Assembly (NCBI GenBank): GCA_016213785.1
Contig: JACQZQ010000008.1
Coordinates: 124,001 to 188,000 of the forward strand
DNA: 64,000 nt
Reading direction: 5' to 3'
DNA from: Acidobacteriota bacterium
GTDB taxonomy: Bacteria; Acidobacteriota; Blastocatellia; Chloracidobacteriales; JADJPF01
Shown here: positions 1,837 to 9,424 of the stretch, piece by piece
How positions within the stretch are numbered: the first letter of the stretch is position 1
Layout of the letters: every line of letters begins with the position of its first letter
The notes under the pieces: generated by a model
What the model saw: the letters and a program-made list of their open reading frames with translations, nothing else
The model's database searches: none
What the model was told of the DNA's origin: nothing
Position numbers and translations under genes: made by a program

Positions 1837-2328
1837 CTATTTTGTTTTAGGAGTAGCTTCTTTTTTAGCAGCTTCTTTCTTAGGAGCAGCTTCTTTCTTA
1901 GGAGCGGCTTCTTTAGCAGCTTCTTTCTTAGCAGCAGCTTCGGTTGTAAGTTGATTGTCTACTTTTTTAACACCTTTTACGCTTTTAGAAACATTAGTAG
2001 CTACACCTTTGAGACCACCATTTTTAACTTTTCCTGTTAATGTAACAACACCATCTTTAACGGCAACAGAAATAGCCGCGTCTTTAAGAGAAGGTGTTTT
2101 ACCAAGTTTTTCTTTTACACCTGTTGTAAGTGTTGCATCATCAACTACAACAGGAGCGGCTTTTTCAGCTTTAGCAGCAGCTTTTTCAGCCTTAGCAGGA
2201 GCGGCTTTTTCAACCGCAGCAGCTTTTTCAGCTTTAGCAGGAGCGGCTTTTTCGGCTTTCTTATCTTGAGCAAATGCAAAAGTTACAAGTAACAAGATTA
2301 TCGTTAATGTAGATGTGAGTTTTTTCAT
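1837..2328 (-). CDS. periplasmic BON-domain protein with Lys/Ala-rich repeats
   Basis: A 163-residue protein with a clear signal peptide (residues 1-20, probable cleavage after AFA). Residues 22-60 are a low-complexity KAEKAAPA-type repeat. About 63-130 is a BON domain (strand-helix-strand pattern with the glycine-rich VTLTGKV turn), and the tail (131-163) is another Lys/Ala/Glu repeat. BON domains occur in periplasmic proteins such as OsmY and are thought to bind membranes or other envelope parts. The basic, alanine-rich flanks may contact anionic lipid or cell wall; that is inference. A strong SD (GGAGG) lies 7 bases before the ATG. Long frames on the opposite strand here are shadows of the repeats. 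Confidence 0.8.
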   Translation of the reverse strand: MKKLTSTLTIILLLVTFAFAQDKKAEKAAPAKAEKAAAVEKAAPAKAEKAAAKAEKAAPVVVDDATLTTGVKEKLGKTPSLKDAAISVAVKDGVVTLTGKVKNGGLKGVATNVSKSVKGVKKVDNQLTTEAAAKKEAAKEAAPKKEAAPKKEAAKKEATPKTK

Positions 2329-2782
2329 TTATTTACCTCCAAAATTTATTTACCTTAGCTATTAACTAAAGTAAGCGTTTTAGCAAAAAATTGCTTTAAC
2401 TTTGTAACTAGATGAAAAAGGGGCACGAATAGTTGAACCGTTAAATTCAGGCAACTCAAAATACTCCTTGACATAAGAAAATTGCTAGATTGAAATGATT
2501 TAAAGCTTATCTATATGATTAACAACTAGTTACTGCTAAAACATTTTAACTAAGCTTTATAAATATGCAATTGTTTTAGCCGAAAATGATAGGATGCTCT
2601 GGTAGAAATACTTTATCAGTATTTTATCTTAAATTTTTTTCTACTAGTTTCTAGCTATTACAAATCTCATATAAATCGCAATTGAAGACCTTAAGCAAAA
2701 GGAATAAAATAATTTATAGTTTGCTATATAGAAAATACTATAACTTAAGCCAGTAAAAAAGTTTGTGAGTAATTTAATTTAC
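2329..2782. other. gene-free divergent region
   Basis: About 450 bases between the divergent BON and GNAT genes. A TTGACA occurs near 2468, but no convincing -10 follows at 16-18 bases. No ORF with a ribosome binding site was found. The promoters of both flanking genes should lie here. Confidence 0.4.
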
Positions 2783-3235
2783 ATGATAATAAGTAAAAGA
2801 CAAGCACAGAATAGCGATAAAGACTTTGCCCGCCAAGTTCATCATAAAGCTTATAAAGATGTAGTAACAAAGCAGTTTGGTGTATGGGATGAAAAAGCAC
2901 AAGATGAGTTTTTTGAAAGCGATTGGAATGGAGCAACATTTGAAATTCTCATGTGTAATGAAGTCTGTTGTGGATATGTTTCTATTGAAGAAAAAGAAAA
3001 AAGTATTCATATTCAGGAATTAGTTATTCATCCTGATTTTCAAAACCAAGGTATAGGAACTAAAATTTTACAAGAAGTTATTGAGCAAGCTGCATTACGC
3101 AAAATTCCAGTTAGACTTGAAACCTTGCATTCTAATCAAGCTATCAATCTGTATCTTAGATTGGGCTTTTATAAAATTGGTTTGACTGACACACATATTT
3201 TGATGCAATGGAGTAGCTATAAAAGCGTTAGCTGA
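2783..3235 (+). CDS. GNAT-family N-acetyltransferase
   Basis: A protein of about 150 residues with the GNAT core. The strand IHIQELVIHPDF leads into the acetyl-CoA pyrophosphate-binding loop QNQGIG (Q/RxxGxG/A), followed by an amphipathic helix, and the C-terminal block ends in NLYLRLGFYKIG, the usual motif B region. It should transfer an acetyl group from acetyl-CoA to an amine; the acceptor is not predictable. A GTG at 2765 is in frame, but the ATG at 2783 gives a normal GNAT N-terminus. Neither has a good SD. The next gene begins 39 bases downstream. Confidence 0.85.
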   Translation: MIISKRQAQNSDKDFARQVHHKAYKDVVTKQFGVWDEKAQDEFFESDWNGATFEILMCNEVCCGYVSIEEKEKSIHIQELVIHPDFQNQGIGTKILQEVIEQAALRKIPVRLETLHSNQAINLYLRLGFYKIGLTDTHILMQWSSYKSVS

Positions 3236-3274: not shown

Positions 3275-4150
3275 ATGTCAAAGCGCGAAACTAATTATAT
3301 AAAAATGCTTTTTCAAAGTAACACTAATCTAGTATTTGTAGGAATATTGTTATTTTGTACTATGGTTTTTAACTCAGGTTTTCTTTTTCTTTTAGTTGCA
3401 GGTGAACTTGGGCTACTTATGCTATCTCAAATAGAGTTGGTGCAAAAATATTTACGTAAAAAGGCAGATGAAGCTTGGCAAAAAGAGCAAGTTTTCTTAG
3501 AGGAACAAATAATAGCAGGGCTAGGAGATAACTATAAAAATGATTTTTATCGCCTTAAGCAACTTTGTGGAGAAATAGAGCGACGTGCTGCTGAAGTAGG
3601 CCAAGACCAAGCTTCTTTAGTAATGATAGATGATTTATCAGGAAAGCTTGGTTCCTTTAGATGTGAGTACGTAAAAATGCTAAGGGCGCATTTTATCCTT
3701 TCTACCAAAAATTTTAAGTCAATCAAAAGCCGTGTTGATGATGATATAAGGCGTTTAGAGAATAATATTGGTAAGGAACATTCTCTTCAGGTAAGAGCTA
3801 CTTTAGAGCAAAACTTAAAAATTCTTCAACAGCGTTCTAATAAACTAGTTCAACTTGGGGATTTAGTTAGATTATTAGAAGCTAGATTACAAGTTGTCCG
3901 CAATTCCTTGCAATTAATCCAAGATGAAGTTTATAGTCTTACAAATGTTCGAGGTATCTCAGAAATGGTTAGCGGCCTGTTAACAAACCTAGAACTTAGT
4001 GAAGAATTCCGCTCATATTACGATGATGTTTTAAGCGAAAAAAGCTTTTCAGCCTTAGAGCAAAATAATGATCTTGCCCTAGAACCTGAGTTTAACCCTA
4101 ATAAAGAATCCTATGAATCAACTAAAGGTCGAGAAAAATATAGAAACTAA
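3275..4150 (+). CDS. membrane-anchored coiled-coil protein, unknown function
   Basis: 291 residues, family not recognised. Residues about 15-52 form one long or two short hydrophobic segments. The rest is almost wholly helical and charged, with heptad-like stretches around 60-110 and 150-230, so the protein is probably an inner-membrane-anchored cytoplasmic coiled coil. It lies 9 bases upstream of the next gene and in the same direction as the SBP/OmpA fusion beyond it, so the three may act together. An N-terminal membrane anchor followed by helices is also the layout of XpaC-like proteins; this is only a resemblance in architecture. Confidence 0.65.
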   Translation: MSKRETNYIKMLFQSNTNLVFVGILLFCTMVFNSGFLFLLVAGELGLLMLSQIELVQKYLRKKADEAWQKEQVFLEEQIIAGLGDNYKNDFYRLKQLCGEIERRAAEVGQDQASLVMIDDLSGKLGSFRCEYVKMLRAHFILSTKNFKSIKSRVDDDIRRLENNIGKEHSLQVRATLEQNLKILQQRSNKLVQLGDLVRLLEARLQVVRNSLQLIQDEVYSLTNVRGISEMVSGLLTNLELSEEFRSYYDDVLSEKSFSALEQNNDLALEPEFNPNKESYESTKGREKYRN

Positions 4151-4159
4151 AGGAGTCTT

Positions 4160-4996
4160 ATGACAGAAAGACCAAAATCCCCAGCAGAACTAGAAAAAAT
4201 GTTAAAAGATATGGAATCAATGTCTAAAGGCATTCAAGAAACTCCTAAAGCTCGTAGCGAAAAAGGAGCATTAAAATCTTTACTAGGCTTTTTTGTTAAA
4301 ATCCACGATGATGAAGAAGAAACATCTAACCCACAACCTCCACCACAAACCCCACAGCCAGCAAAACCTAATCAAACGCTTCCAACACCTCCTATGTCAT
4401 CTCCGCCTATGGCTGAGGTTGCCCAACGTAGGGTTGCAGATATAGCCGCTAATGAGCCTATACCAAAATTTAATCAGCCAAAAACTTCTGTTCAAGAAGA
4501 AGATCTTTCTACTAAACCATTTGAAGAAATCTATAAAGAAGCAGGTGTTCTTAAAGCTAAATGTTCTATTGATGAGCTTTTAGGGCTAATGAATAGCCCA
4601 ACTGTTGCTAATCAGCCACTAACTGTAAAAGTTGTAGCTGTTAATCTTGCGCTTACTGCTAAGGGTGTAAAAATTGATGATTATATTGCTGATGCAATAC
4701 GTAAAGATTGCGCTTTAGACGCTTATCAGTTAATGCTTAATGAAAGGGCTGCTGAAATAGAGACTAAGGCAAAAACAAGTATTGAAAATATTCAAAAAGA
4801 AGTAGAAGATTACTTAAAGAAAAAACAGCAAGAAATGGAAAAGTTACGTGCTCAGTCTTCTGAAGCTAGCCGTCAATCAATAGAATTTGCTATTAATCGC
4901 CAGGTTGAAGAACAACGTCTAGCTGATGCTATTAGCCCATTTCTAGAAGGTAAACCTAATCCTGTTTCTATAGGCAATACACCAGAACGTTCATAA
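4160..4996 (+). CDS. Pro-rich, coiled-coil cytoplasmic protein, unknown function
   Basis: 278 residues with no signal peptide or membrane segment. Residues 1-50 are charged. About 55-100 is Pro/Gln-rich and probably disordered. About 120-185 looks like a compact helical domain, and 190-250 is a strong coiled coil. It has an excellent SD (AAGGAG) and follows the previous gene by 9 bases, so the two are co-transcribed. The coiled coils in both neighbours suggest that they may bind each other. I do not recognise the family. Confidence 0.65.
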   Translation: MTERPKSPAELEKMLKDMESMSKGIQETPKARSEKGALKSLLGFFVKIHDDEEETSNPQPPPQTPQPAKPNQTLPTPPMSSPPMAEVAQRRVADIAANEPIPKFNQPKTSVQEEDLSTKPFEEIYKEAGVLKAKCSIDELLGLMNSPTVANQPLTVKVVAVNLALTAKGVKIDDYIADAIRKDCALDAYQLMLNERAAEIETKAKTSIENIQKEVEDYLKKKQQEMEKLRAQSSEASRQSIEFAINRQVEEQRLADAISPFLEGKPNPVSIGNTPERS

Positions 4997-5185
4997 AATG
5001 TAGTAATTAGTAAAATAGGCTAAATATTAACTTATTCTAAAACTTGGGTTTATAAGAAATCGTGGTTTTAAAAAGTTTTATGAGTAGACTATAACTAATT
5101 GATTCGACCGGAACGAATTTTCTTTTGGTGTTAAATTCATTGGCGTTAATTCAAAGTTTTTCATATATCAAAAATGGAGGCAGTT

Positions 5186-6973
5186 ATGAGAGTAGGTCGG
5201 GTAGAACTTGGCCCAGGAGCCATTATTTTAATCTTCCTAGTAATGGCAGGACTCGTTTATGTTGGACTAGATAGGCTTGGTGTAATGGAGAGAGTAAAAA
5301 ATACTATTAACCCTGTAGGAGAAACACCAGGAGATTCTAAAGTTCCAGAAAAACGTGCTAACTTAGGTGATTTTAAGGATATTCCCGGCTCAGAAGTAAA
5401 AGCACCAGAAAAAACTACTGATAACCCAGAAGTAGTAATAGGAATTTGGACTTGGCAAACTGTAAGCGGTCTTATTGATGCTGTTGGTGGTTCAGGTAAA
5501 TCAGGAGATTATCCTAATAACTGTCTTTGCCAAGCTGGAATTACTAATACTAAATTAGTAGTACAAAATGATACAGCAGAACAAATTAAAGCTCTATCTG
5601 CTAATCAAATGCAGTTAGTTACAACTACAGGCGACCAATCAGCCGTTGATATTGCTGGTGCTAACAAATTATTAAAAGGTAATAAAGCGAAAGTAATTTG
5701 GAGTAGCGGTTATTCATTTGGAGAAGATTGTTTAATGGGGCCTGAGTCTTGGAAAAAAGACCCTCAACTTGCTCGTGGCTCTGTTGTTGTAACAGCAGTT
5801 CCTTATTGTGATTGGAATGTGGTGGTAAATTGGGCTAGCGATAATCAAATCCCTGTTAACCCTAATGAAGAAGTCTATGACCCTAAAGCTATTAACTTTG
5901 TTAATGCTGTAGATCATATTGAAGCTTCACAAAAATTTGTTAAAAACTCAAAAGTAAGCTTGACTAATATAGCTACTAATAAAAAAGAAGATTTTGCAAT
6001 AGATGCTGTGGCTACTTGGACACCTGGCGATGTAACAGCAGCTAAAGAGCGTGCAACTGTTACTTATAAAGGTAAACAAGAAAAATTACAAAAAATCGTT
6101 TCTACAAAAGAATATAGCTATATGATGCCACATATTCTTTTTGGAAATGAAGATTGGTTAAATCAACATCGTGATTATGTAAAAACACTACTTCGTTGTA
6201 TTGCTCGTTCAAATGAAAAAATTAAAACTGATGATAATTACCTAAAAAATCGTATTGCGGCCTTAAACGCGTTAATGTTTAATGTTGAGGGTGCAGGGCC
6301 TAGTTTTTGGTATGACTATTTCAAAGGCAAAGTTGAAGATGGTGTTCCATTAGGTGGCTCACGGGTTAATAATTTAGCCGAAGTAAAACACTTATTTGGT
6401 CTGGCTAATAATTTACCTATTGAACAAAGCATTTTTGGTATCACTTACACCGATCATGGTAAGAGACTGCAAAAAATCCTACCTACTAGACTAGAAAGTT
6501 TTGCCCCAGTTAAAGATGTTGTAGATTTAAGCTTTATTAAAGAAATTTCTGATGAACAAAGCGCTACACCTATTTATCAAGCTAAATTTGAAGCAGGACA
6601 AAATAAAGGAACTGTTGTAAGTGCTAATTATCAAATTACTTTTCCTTCAGGTTCTGCTGCTATTCAATCCTCAGAAACAAAAACACTTGAGGAAATCCGT
6701 AGCTTGCTTATTCGTGCTAGCGATACAAAAGTAATTATATATGGTCATACAGATAATTTAGGCGATGATTCAATCAATACCCCTTTATCTAAACAACGTG
6801 CTCAGTCTGTTTGGGAATGGTTAAAGAAATCTGACCCAAGCGGTGTAAATATTAGCGATTCTAGACTTCAAACGATAGACGGTTTTGGCGCTGCTAAACC
6901 ACTTGCTGGCAATACAAATAAAGATGATAAAGAACGTGCTGCTAACCGTAGAGTTGAAATTGTATTAAAGTAA
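5186..6973 (+). CDS. membrane-anchored substrate-binding protein / OmpA-like fusion
   Basis: About 595 residues. One N-terminal membrane segment (about 8-28) is followed by a type-2 periplasmic-binding-protein-like domain (about 75-420; IGIWTWQTVSGLIDAVGG opens it). A C-terminal OmpA domain (about 480-595) carries the peptidoglycan-binding blocks YGHTDNLG and RAANRRVEI. The predicted product sits in the inner membrane, binds a ligand in the periplasm and grips the cell wall. An in-frame ATG at 5174 exists, but the SD GGAGG occupies 5176-5180, directly upstream of the ATG at 5186, so 5186 is the start. No ABC permease or ATPase gene is nearby, which argues against simple import. The ligand is unknown. 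Confidence 0.8.
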   Translation: MRVGRVELGPGAIILIFLVMAGLVYVGLDRLGVMERVKNTINPVGETPGDSKVPEKRANLGDFKDIPGSEVKAPEKTTDNPEVVIGIWTWQTVSGLIDAVGGSGKSGDYPNNCLCQAGITNTKLVVQNDTAEQIKALSANQMQLVTTTGDQSAVDIAGANKLLKGNKAKVIWSSGYSFGEDCLMGPESWKKDPQLARGSVVVTAVPYCDWNVVVNWASDNQIPVNPNEEVYDPKAINFVNAVDHIEASQKFVKNSKVSLTNIATNKKEDFAIDAVATWTPGDVTAAKERATVTYKGKQEKLQKIVSTKEYSYMMPHILFGNEDWLNQHRDYVKTLLRCIARSNEKIKTDDNYLKNRIAALNALMFNVEGAGPSFWYDYFKGKVEDGVPLGGSRVNNLAEVKHLFGLANNLPIEQSIFGITYTDHGKRLQKILPTRLESFAPVKDVVDLSFIKEISDEQSATPIYQAKFEAGQNKGTVVSANYQITFPSGSAAIQSSETKTLEEIRSLLIRASDTKVIIYGHTDNLGDDSINTPLSKQRAQSVWEWLKKSDPSGVNISDSRLQTIDGFGAAKPLAGNTNKDDKERAANRRVEIVLK

Positions 6974-6998: not shown

Positions 6999-7034
6999 TA
7001 ACCCCTAAGAATTTTCTTAGGGGTTAGCTTTTTT
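6999..7034 (+). terminator. intrinsic terminator after the SBP/OmpA gene
   Basis: A 13-bp stem (6999-7011 with 7014-7026) with core CCCCTAAGAA/TTCTTAGGGG is followed by GC and six T. This is a textbook rho-independent terminator ending the 3275-6973 cluster. Confidence 0.9.
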
Positions 7035-7162: not shown

Positions 7163-9424
7163 ATGCTAAGTAGAAAGAGAAGAAGCCTGATAATTATCGG
7201 GCTTTTTGTTTTAGGGGTGCTATTACCTGTTATTAATAAAAATAGCGAAATAACCAAAGTAAAAGCCTTTGCTAGTCCTTTTCCAAATAACTCTAGTCCA
7301 ATTGTGTTAAATAATGGGAATCGTTTTGTGTGGGTGGTAAATCCTGATAATAATTCTGTTACTAGAATTGATATAGGCGATGAAAGAAATTTTCCTACAA
7401 TTACTATTGCTGTAGGTAGAGAACCACAATCATTAGTTTTATCTGCTGATGATACAAAGGTTTATGTTGCTAATACTGTTGATGGAACGGTTTCAGTAAT
7501 TAGCACTGCTACCTCTCAAGTAGTTAACACTATTAAAGTAGGTACTGAGCCTCGTGCAGTAGTTCTAAGTCCAAATGGGACTAAACTTTATGTAGCAAAC
7601 TCTAACTCTAGTAGCCTCTCTGTTATAGATACAAAAACAGATAAAGTTACTAAAGAAATAAGACTCTCTGCCGCTCCAGATGGAAATATTAGGCCTTATG
7701 CATTAGCCATTACTAATGATGGTGATTTTGATGATAATGATGAGAGAATTTTAGTTACAAATTTTTTAGCTCAATATCGGCCTAATGATGTTAGGCCAGG
7801 TTTTGATGATGGAAAAGCTGGACAAGTTTTTATTATTGATACAGCTAGAGAGCTTTTAACAGACACTATCACGGTTGAACCTATGATGGATACAGGGTTT
7901 TCTTCTAATGGAAGCGCTATAAAAAGAATTGCTGCTGGGCCAAGTGATAGACCAAACTTAGTTGCTACAGGGGCTTTCCCTAATTTGCTTAATAGTATTG
8001 TAATTAAAGGAAATAAGGCTTATTTAGCTGCAACAGGATCTCAACCTGATGGGCCTGTACGTTTTAATACTAATGTTCAAAGTTTACTTTCAGTCATTGA
8101 TTTACAGTCAAATAGAGATGCAAATCTTACTACTAATATGAATTTTGGAATCCAATTTGAACCTGATAAATTTGATTTACAAAATAATCCACTAACTCGT
8201 TTTGTTACCGTACCTTATGCTCTTGCTTTTAAGAAAACCTCTAATACAGGTTATGTAGTTTCTTCGCTATCAAATATGATTGTACAAGTTAATTTAGACG
8301 ATCAAGGTAAAGGCTCTATTAATGCTCCTAAAGCAATGGGCGATCCTGGAAATATTACTCGTATTTTAGTAGGTAAAAATCCTCGTGGTATTATAATTAG
8401 AAATGATGATACTAGGGCTTATGTAATGAATTATGTTTCTCGGGATGTAACAGTTGTAGATATTGTGAATAATAAAGTTATTGCTACTGTTACAAGTGCT
8501 CCACAGCCAACAGATCAACGAAGCCAATTTATACAAAGAGGTAAAGAACTTTTTAATACTTCAATAGGCCCAATTTTTGATGGTCAAGCAGCCACATTTA
8601 AGGGACAAGGCAGAATGAGTAATCATGGAATGGGTGGTTGTTTTGAATGTCATCCAGAGGGTTTAAGCGATGGAGTAGTTTGGATGTTTCCTGATGGGCC
8701 TCGTCGTGCAATTCCTCTTAATTGGGATTTTGATAAAAAGAATCCAAGTATTGAACGTGTTTATAACTTTTCAGCTAATCGTGATGAAGTCCAAGATTTT
8801 GAGCTTAATACAAGAAATGTCTCAGGAGGTGCAGGGTTAATTCGCTTAGCTAATAATGAACAAGATCCAATGGTTGCAAACTTAACTCCACTAGCTAATA
8901 CAGGCCGTAACCCTGATCAAGACGCTATTGCAGCTTATGTTAGTACCATTAGAGCGCCTATTTCTCCCTTTTCTCAAGATGATTTAGATGTAAAGAAGGG
9001 GCGCAAACTTTTTGAAAAAGCAGGTTGTGTTACTTGTCATTCTGGTTCACTTTGGAGTACTGCAATACGTGATTTTTCTCCACCACCAGCCGCAGATCGT
9101 ATTAAAGATGGACAAATTTTAAGTGTGCTTAAAAAAGTAGGTACTCTTGATAGAAATAAAACTCATGAAATTATTGGTACAGGTGCAACAATGGGTCAGC
9201 CTTCTAGAGGTGATGATGGCTTTAACCCTTCGTCTCTCTTAGGTGTTTATGCTAATGGGCCATATTTACACGATGGATCATTAACTACAATTGATCAAGT
9301 GCTTAATAATCCTAACCATGTAGGGACTAATAAAGTACTTTCTAGCCCTAAAAAACGCGCTCAACTTATCAAATTTGTCTTATCCATAGATGATAGAACA
9401 GAACCCTTTCCATTAAAAAAATAG
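7163..9424 (+). CDS. YVTN beta-propeller / di-haem cytochrome c protein
   Basis: 753 residues. An N-terminal membrane/signal segment (about 7-24) is followed by a seven-bladed-type propeller with YVTN-like repeats (blades such as VYVANTVDGTVSVI and LYVANSNSSSLSVI) over about 45-450. A cytochrome c part carries two haem-binding CxxCH motifs (CFECH from residue 493, CVTCH from 622) and a late GPYLHDGS segment typical of di-haem peroxidase-like (MauG/CcpA-type) proteins. It is probably periplasmic or lipid-side exposed and transfers electrons; the substrate is unknown. The SD GGAGG precedes the ATG. It shares upstream DNA with the outer-membrane protein gene that follows, so the two may be co-regulated. 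Confidence 0.85.
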   Translation: MLSRKRRSLIIIGLFVLGVLLPVINKNSEITKVKAFASPFPNNSSPIVLNNGNRFVWVVNPDNNSVTRIDIGDERNFPTITIAVGREPQSLVLSADDTKVYVANTVDGTVSVISTATSQVVNTIKVGTEPRAVVLSPNGTKLYVANSNSSSLSVIDTKTDKVTKEIRLSAAPDGNIRPYALAITNDGDFDDNDERILVTNFLAQYRPNDVRPGFDDGKAGQVFIIDTARELLTDTITVEPMMDTGFSSNGSAIKRIAAGPSDRPNLVATGAFPNLLNSIVIKGNKAYLAATGSQPDGPVRFNTNVQSLLSVIDLQSNRDANLTTNMNFGIQFEPDKFDLQNNPLTRFVTVPYALAFKKTSNTGYVVSSLSNMIVQVNLDDQGKGSINAPKAMGDPGNITRILVGKNPRGIIIRNDDTRAYVMNYVSRDVTVVDIVNNKVIATVTSAPQPTDQRSQFIQRGKELFNTSIGPIFDGQAATFKGQGRMSNHGMGGCFECHPEGLSDGVVWMFPDGPRRAIPLNWDFDKKNPSIERVYNFSANRDEVQDFELNTRNVSGGAGLIRLANNEQDPMVANLTPLANTGRNPDQDAIAAYVSTIRAPISPFSQDDLDVKKGRKLFEKAGCVTCHSGSLWSTAIRDFSPPPAADRIKDGQILSVLKKVGTLDRNKTHEIIGTGATMGQPSRGDDGFNPSSLLGVYANGPYLHDGSLTTIDQVLNNPNHVGTNKVLSSPKKRAQLIKFVLSIDDRTEPFPLKK

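Follow-up and report, generated by a model that had tools for sequence, protein, structure and literature searches.

Only one earlier report bearing on the gene set considered here was found in our literature search, that of Ravi et al. 2024 (PMC11237479). Its passages on this gene set describe operons that encode PspA, a Snf7 homologue with a transmembrane (TM) segment and an AAA+ ATPase with an inactive N-terminal copy, together with an ATP-binding cassette (ABC) ATPase, a permease and a PBPB-OmpA protein (example OGG56892.1), and propose that such operons link the remodelling of membranes with the transport of solutes. Nowhere in its main text does that paper use the term 'acidobacteri'. 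We analysed a stretch of 64,000 nucleotides (the window) from the genome of an Acidobacteriota bacterium of the class Blastocatellia (assembly GCA_016213785.1, contig JACQZQ010000008.1, positions 124,001 to 188,000). Near its start, three genes on the forward strand encode P1 (3275-4150), P2 (4160-4996) and a substrate-binding protein (SBP)-like/OmpA fusion (5186-6973). The best reading of this trio is as a detached portion of the operon system of Ravi et al., split in the window's genus. The system is already known, as a published prediction; the split arrangement is unusual.

Parts of the set also recall better-known machinery. Like ABC importers of the nitrate/bicarbonate/sulfonate/taurine type, it has one permease related to a nitrate permease and to CmpB, one ATPase and one candidate binding protein; unlike in those importers, the fusion's domain barely matches SsuA/TauA and is joined both to a membrane anchor and to an OmpA domain. 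An OmpA domain is shared with MotB/PomB and Pal-type proteins. In MotB a membrane anchor at the N-terminus is combined with an OmpA domain at the C-terminus; the fusion shows this MotB-like order, differing from MotB/PomB/Pal in the large conserved domain that lies between the two.

The gene set in relatives

The central domain of the fusion was found in 24 genomes, 17 of 162 in the window's class and 7 of 148 in a second class; in a phylum sample it occurred in 10 of 396 genomes, all within the 24. A transporter was counted as linked when profile searches of the locus placed a permease and an ATPase on the strand of the fusion and no more than two genes away. By this count 19 of the 24 genomes (13/17 in Blastocatellia, 6/7 in the second class) have a linked ABC permease and ATPase, usually followed in the gene order by P1 and P2, and in relatives both are among the open reading frames (ORFs) that lie between the fusion and P1. 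The sequence-only reading of the window, which had doubted that the trio is an importer and had named a transporter gene beside the cluster in relatives as evidence against itself, is contradicted in this part. Five genomes have no linked transporter. In G516 and G555 the contig ends within or just beyond the fusion, and in G054 a Uma2-like ORF (named by eye) comes straight after the fusion, followed by the contig end; all three are counted as misses in the 19/24. The other two are the genome of the window (G000) and a sister genome of the same genus (G001), in which long flanks beside the fusion hold no transporter. Among seven genomes checked, the permease was present in all three with the fusion and in none of the four without it.

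The permease matches BPD_transp_1 at 49 bits (cut-off 26.4). The ATPase matches ABC_tran at 98 bits (cut-off 25) and has Walker A, LSGGQ and Walker B. A profile of the permease picks up a nitrate transport permease (E 3.6e-10) and CmpB (8.9e-6), both of solved structure. Against the NCBIfam models of nitrate, SsuC and TauC permeases, the matches of the permease fall far below the cut-offs.

In some genomes the cluster also includes PspA and an AAA+ ATPase. PspA is present in 7 of the 24 clusters, those of G336, G551, G555 (as a 130-aa ORF) and G556 in the window's class and of G096, G375 and G516 in the second class; the last three match PF04012 at 70-80 bits (cut-off 33.9). The AAA+ ATPase is present in six (G336, G551, G555 and G556 in the window's class, G096 and G375 in the second), and in each of the three AAA+ proteins tested Walker A occurs just once, at residue 349-369, within the C-terminal half. 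Seven genes, encoding P1 or a P1-like protein, P2 or a P2-like protein, permease, ATPase, fusion, AAA+ and PspA, form one cluster on one strand in G375 (L085), G556 (L114) and G336 (L086); in G336 a small gene of opposite orientation is inserted into the cluster. The same seven-gene cluster is seen in G551 (L112), its AAA+ gene cut by the stretch end at the contig's start. A 126-aa protein without a Pfam or NCBIfam match belongs to the cluster in seven Blastocatellia genomes (e.g. L086:8429-8809), with its gene on the opposite strand in G336 and G551.

Paralogues of P1 adjoin PspA in five of six Blastocatellia genomes examined. They stand with PspA and an AAA+ relative in G014, G033, G003 and G047. 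In G000 the P1 paralogue stands with PspA at C39:64855-66492, and an AAA+ relative (41%) is unlinked, at C34:28360-30156. In G006 no PspA was found beside the P1 relative within the 9 kb read, and none was found in the window.

The three genes travel together, and the lack of joint conservation that would have counted against the sequence-only reading is not seen. Among 58 relatives, strong matches were found in 11 genomes for P1 (E <=1e-60), 11 for P2 and 12 for the fusion. The P1 and P2 genomes are the same 11, all of them among the fusion's 12, and the extra one is G054, where the fusion lies on a 3.6-kb contig. P1 and P2 are together in all 14 Blastocatellia genomes in which both were found, in G014 with one ORF between them. 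In G003 the set is split in another way, with fusion, permease and ATPase on one contig and P1 and P2 on another.

Set against the operons of Ravi et al. (PMC11237479), as those passages describe them, the Acidobacteriota clusters agree in having the fusion, the permease, the ATPase and a TM-plus-helical protein, and some add PspA and an AAA+ ATPase with Walker A only in its C-terminal half. They differ in that the window's genus spreads the set over several loci and that most clusters here are without PspA. Section 18 of that paper makes no mention of P2 or of the 126-aa protein.

We consider it probable that the trio belongs to a conserved importer-plus-membrane-maintenance system, in which a doubly tethered importer is coupled to a PspA/ESCRT-III-like membrane module. 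The strongest competitor is a plain SBP-dependent importer whose binding protein is merely tethered to wall and membrane, with P1 and P2 as accessory assembly factors and no membrane remodelling. The fusion-permease-ATPase link is the most constant one (19/24), and PspA and AAA+ were found in only 7/24 and 6/24 clusters, which speaks for such an importer. That PspA and AAA+ nevertheless join the cluster in both classes, that P1 paralogues so often adjoin PspA (5/6) and that P1 and P2 accompany the fusion in 11 of 12 genomes make it unlikely. The earlier suggestion that the trio is more than a plain importer, with ligand binding tied to the wall, keeps some ground: it fits the PspA/AAA+ gene set and the proposal in the relevant passages of Ravi et al.

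The split arrangement in the window's genus

No ORF of at least 70 aa in the window matches the permease or the ATPase at E 1e-3, and to this extent the remark that the trio has no transporter nearby was right. The genome as a whole tells otherwise, because permease and ATPase genes stand together at C105:36695-38470; in G001 the two are on contig C195. A short-chain-dehydrogenase-like ORF (by eye) lies near the pair in both genomes. The unlinked permease and ATPase of G000 and G001 are 59-67% identical to nine linked copies. Between the two genomes, the ratio of nonsynonymous to synonymous substitution rates (dN/dS) is 0.085 and 0.114 for the pair, as expected if it still serves the fusion.

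This last result bears on a further alternative, in which the trio of this genus is a transporter-free sensing or force-bearing complex whose double tether reports solute or envelope spacing to P1 and P2. The genus does keep P1, P2 and the fusion together with the permease-ATPase pair unlinked, and a single protein, the fusion, does carry both an OmpA domain and a membrane anchor at its N-terminus. The persistence of the permease and ATPase under low dN/dS in both genus members argues the other way, and we regard this alternative as quite improbable. A more novel idea is that the double-tethered binding protein is a gauge of the gap between inner membrane and peptidoglycan, that solute load or spacing is passed via P1 and P2 to the PspA/AAA+ machine, and that the window's genus has genetically uncoupled this sensing branch (P1-P2-fusion) from the transporter branch. 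We would give this idea little weight.

Decay of the trio as a remnant of a broken operon, which the splitting and reordering of the operon might suggest, is rejected as extremely improbable, since the ORFs are intact, dN/dS between G000 and G001 is 0.05-0.14 for all five proteins, and the fusion is 67-73% identical to fusions of other genera. For the trio itself the values are 0.11 (P1), 0.14 (P2) and 0.05 (fusion), and these are therefore maintained genes, not chance ORFs.

The three proteins and how they may work

P1 (291 aa) was characterised from the ORF listing, hydrophobicity and a structural model. It has a hydrophobic region at about residues 24-53, which the model folds as two short helices (16-31 and 36-52) followed by long helices (mean predicted local distance difference test score, pLDDT, 80); P1 is thus modelled as an N-terminal transmembrane hairpin with long helices. 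P2 (278 aa) has no hydrophobic segment by hydrophobicity analysis and is classed as soluble. Its N-terminal half is proline-rich with a conserved short motif, GALKSLLGFFVK, and its C-terminal half ends in a conserved PFLEGKPNPV motif. Scans of Pfam and NCBIfam gave no family above cut-off for P1, for P2 or for the central domain of the fusion. P1 and P2 had been described from the sequence as two coiled-coil proteins. The model of P1 shows long helices and adds a membrane hairpin, and the coiled-coil nature of P2 was judged by eye.

The fusion begins with an anchor (hydrophobic stretch, residues 12-30), continues with a conserved domain of about 375 residues (window 5417-6541) and ends in an OmpA domain (residues 489-588, Pfam E 6e-15). 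The OmpA match recurs in 18 of 18 fusion members, and D527 and R542 are invariant in all 18. We take this conserved Asp and Arg to be the binding-site residues of an OmpA-like peptidoglycan-binding domain. The model of the fusion is poor (mean pLDDT 52); the listed structural matches fall on the OmpA part, which fits an OmpA domain with Z 16.6 (root-mean-square deviation, rmsd, 3.7; 116 aligned). The OmpA half of the SBP/OmpA label given from sequence is confirmed. For the SBP half, a minority of members have weak SsuA or NMT1 matches, and a type-2 binding fold is an unconfirmed candidate. A putative binding role is assigned to the central domain because of its link to a permease related to solved nitrate/bicarbonate permeases, and because of the label used in the published description of these operons (PMC11237479).

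From its position and topology we infer that P1 may be the TM-bearing Snf7 homologue that Ravi et al. describe in their passages on these operons. Several results weigh against this, and against an importer coupled to a membrane module more generally. P1 shows no similarity to PspA profiles (hhalign probability 0.9% and 0.2%), its three Pfam matches include no Snf7 or PspA family, and for 28 P1 relatives neither family was among the best 25 of 79. A relationship of P1 to PspA is therefore unsupported by profile comparison. The P1 model matches only generic helical or BAR-like folds, none significantly. Its best matches are at Foldseek E 0.05 and VIA Z 10.9 (a designed protein), and one ESCRT-IIIB filament appears among many matches (Z 7.6, rmsd 6.2, 108 aligned); a fold search without a clear PspA/ESCRT-III match proves nothing. 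On the transport side, three of 18 fusion members match SsuA weakly in the central domain (best 3.4e-5, with 23 bits where the cut-off is 163.5) and two of 18 match NMT1 weakly (best 0.017). The central domain does not match a two-sequence TauA/SsuA profile, and a sequence search of the PDB gave a single match at E 0.23 and nothing below. Finally, PspA was not found in 17 of the 24 clusters and AAA+ was not found in 18, several of the contigs being short.

If the coupled system is nonetheless as we favour, its parts could act as follows. The fusion would span the space from the inner membrane, through its N-terminal anchor, to the peptidoglycan, through its OmpA domain, and would catch a small solute and pass it to a permease dimer powered by the ATPase. 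A cytoplasmic scaffold would be formed by P2 and by P1, whose hairpin would hold it in the membrane. With PspA and the AAA+ ATPase this scaffold may assemble on the inner membrane and remodel or stabilise it, which would link solute uptake to the condition of the envelope. The window's genus would put the system together from scattered loci. Should the prediction published by Ravi et al., as set out in those passages, be true, this would be a bacterial example of one system uniting an importer with the cell wall and with a PspA/ESCRT-III-like membrane machine. The complete seven-gene, reduced and split clusters of Acidobacteriota are natural tests of which parts act together.

Locus layout, spread and neighbouring genes

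The ORF list gives three intact ORFs on the same strand, at 3275-4150, 4160-4996 and 5174-6973. The listed start of the third is probably too early, because homologues begin at the ATG at 5186, with GGAGG, a likely ribosome-binding site read from the sequence, upstream at 5176-5180 on the forward strand. P1 and P2 are separated by 9 bp, P2 and the fusion by 177-189 bp. The claim that a terminator closes this same-strand cluster agrees with a terminator scan and folding: at 6999-7026 on the forward strand there is a hairpin resembling an intrinsic terminator, with a stem of 12 pairs and then a T run, and the folding energy of this region is -21 kcal/mol (z -3.48; 0 of 200 shuffles equally stable). 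The region as a whole has no more terminator-like sites than shuffled sequence (2 observed; mean of the shuffles 3.0, sd 2.0), and its promoter-like sites are about as many as chance predicts (18 observed, 17.2 by chance).

Beyond the strong matches, weaker relatives of P1 extend to 34 of the 58 genomes at E 0.001, and those of P2 to seven genomes of one other genus. A search of a plasmid collection found no relatives. A scan of a genome collection with two peptide patterns gave 12 loci, 11 of them from Blastocatellia, Acidobacteria, Pyrinomonadaceae or Chloracidobacterium records; the twelfth (Saprospiraceae) matches the OmpA part only. The patterns derive from Blastocatellia sequences, and the scan does not exclude other phyla. 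In the second class the labels P1-like and P2-like are partly transitive. The P1-like proteins of G096 and G421 match the P1 profile directly (E 9e-8 and 5e-8); the P1 profile itself misses those of G375, G475 and G478, which are tied to P1 only via paralogue and G421 relatives (E 2e-9, 4e-5). Similarly, the P2 profile picks up the P2-like protein of G375 (2e-8), through which alone those of G096 and G516 are connected to P2.

TelA-like and XpaC-like genes had been proposed as neighbours of the cluster, and neither was found: PF05816 (TelA) gave no match in the one genome searched, that of the window (controls positive 3/14), and PF10112 (XpaC) none in 39 genomes (controls positive 1/14). Nothing shared with these two families was found.

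Two ORFs appear to be insertions into the operon in relatives, a transposase-like ORF (by eye) between fusion and permease in G540 (L111:2243-3343) and the Uma2-like ORF after the fusion in G054 (L025:2834-3647). In G003 a TerB-family ORF (PF05099, 29.1 bits, cut-off 24.4) follows the ATPase (L049:11909-12847), and the window's genome has a similar ORF (by eye) close to its AAA+ gene (L141:8149-9084).

A GNAT acetyltransferase gene (window 2765-3235) lies directly upstream of P1, and a second GNAT, 37% identical, directly upstream of the P1 paralogue in G000 (L046:9233-10602, G000:C39); a GNAT relative was not found at the sister genome's locus L057. Further upstream in the window (1837-2328) is a gene for a BON-domain protein with Ala/Lys/Glu-rich repeats, which has a counterpart (by eye) upstream of the cluster in G001. 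Directly past the terminator, at 7163-9424, is a gene for a beta-propeller/di-haem cytochrome-like protein with partial matches, below cut-off, to hydrazine synthase and MauG models. It is kept beside the fusion in G001, at 90% identity.

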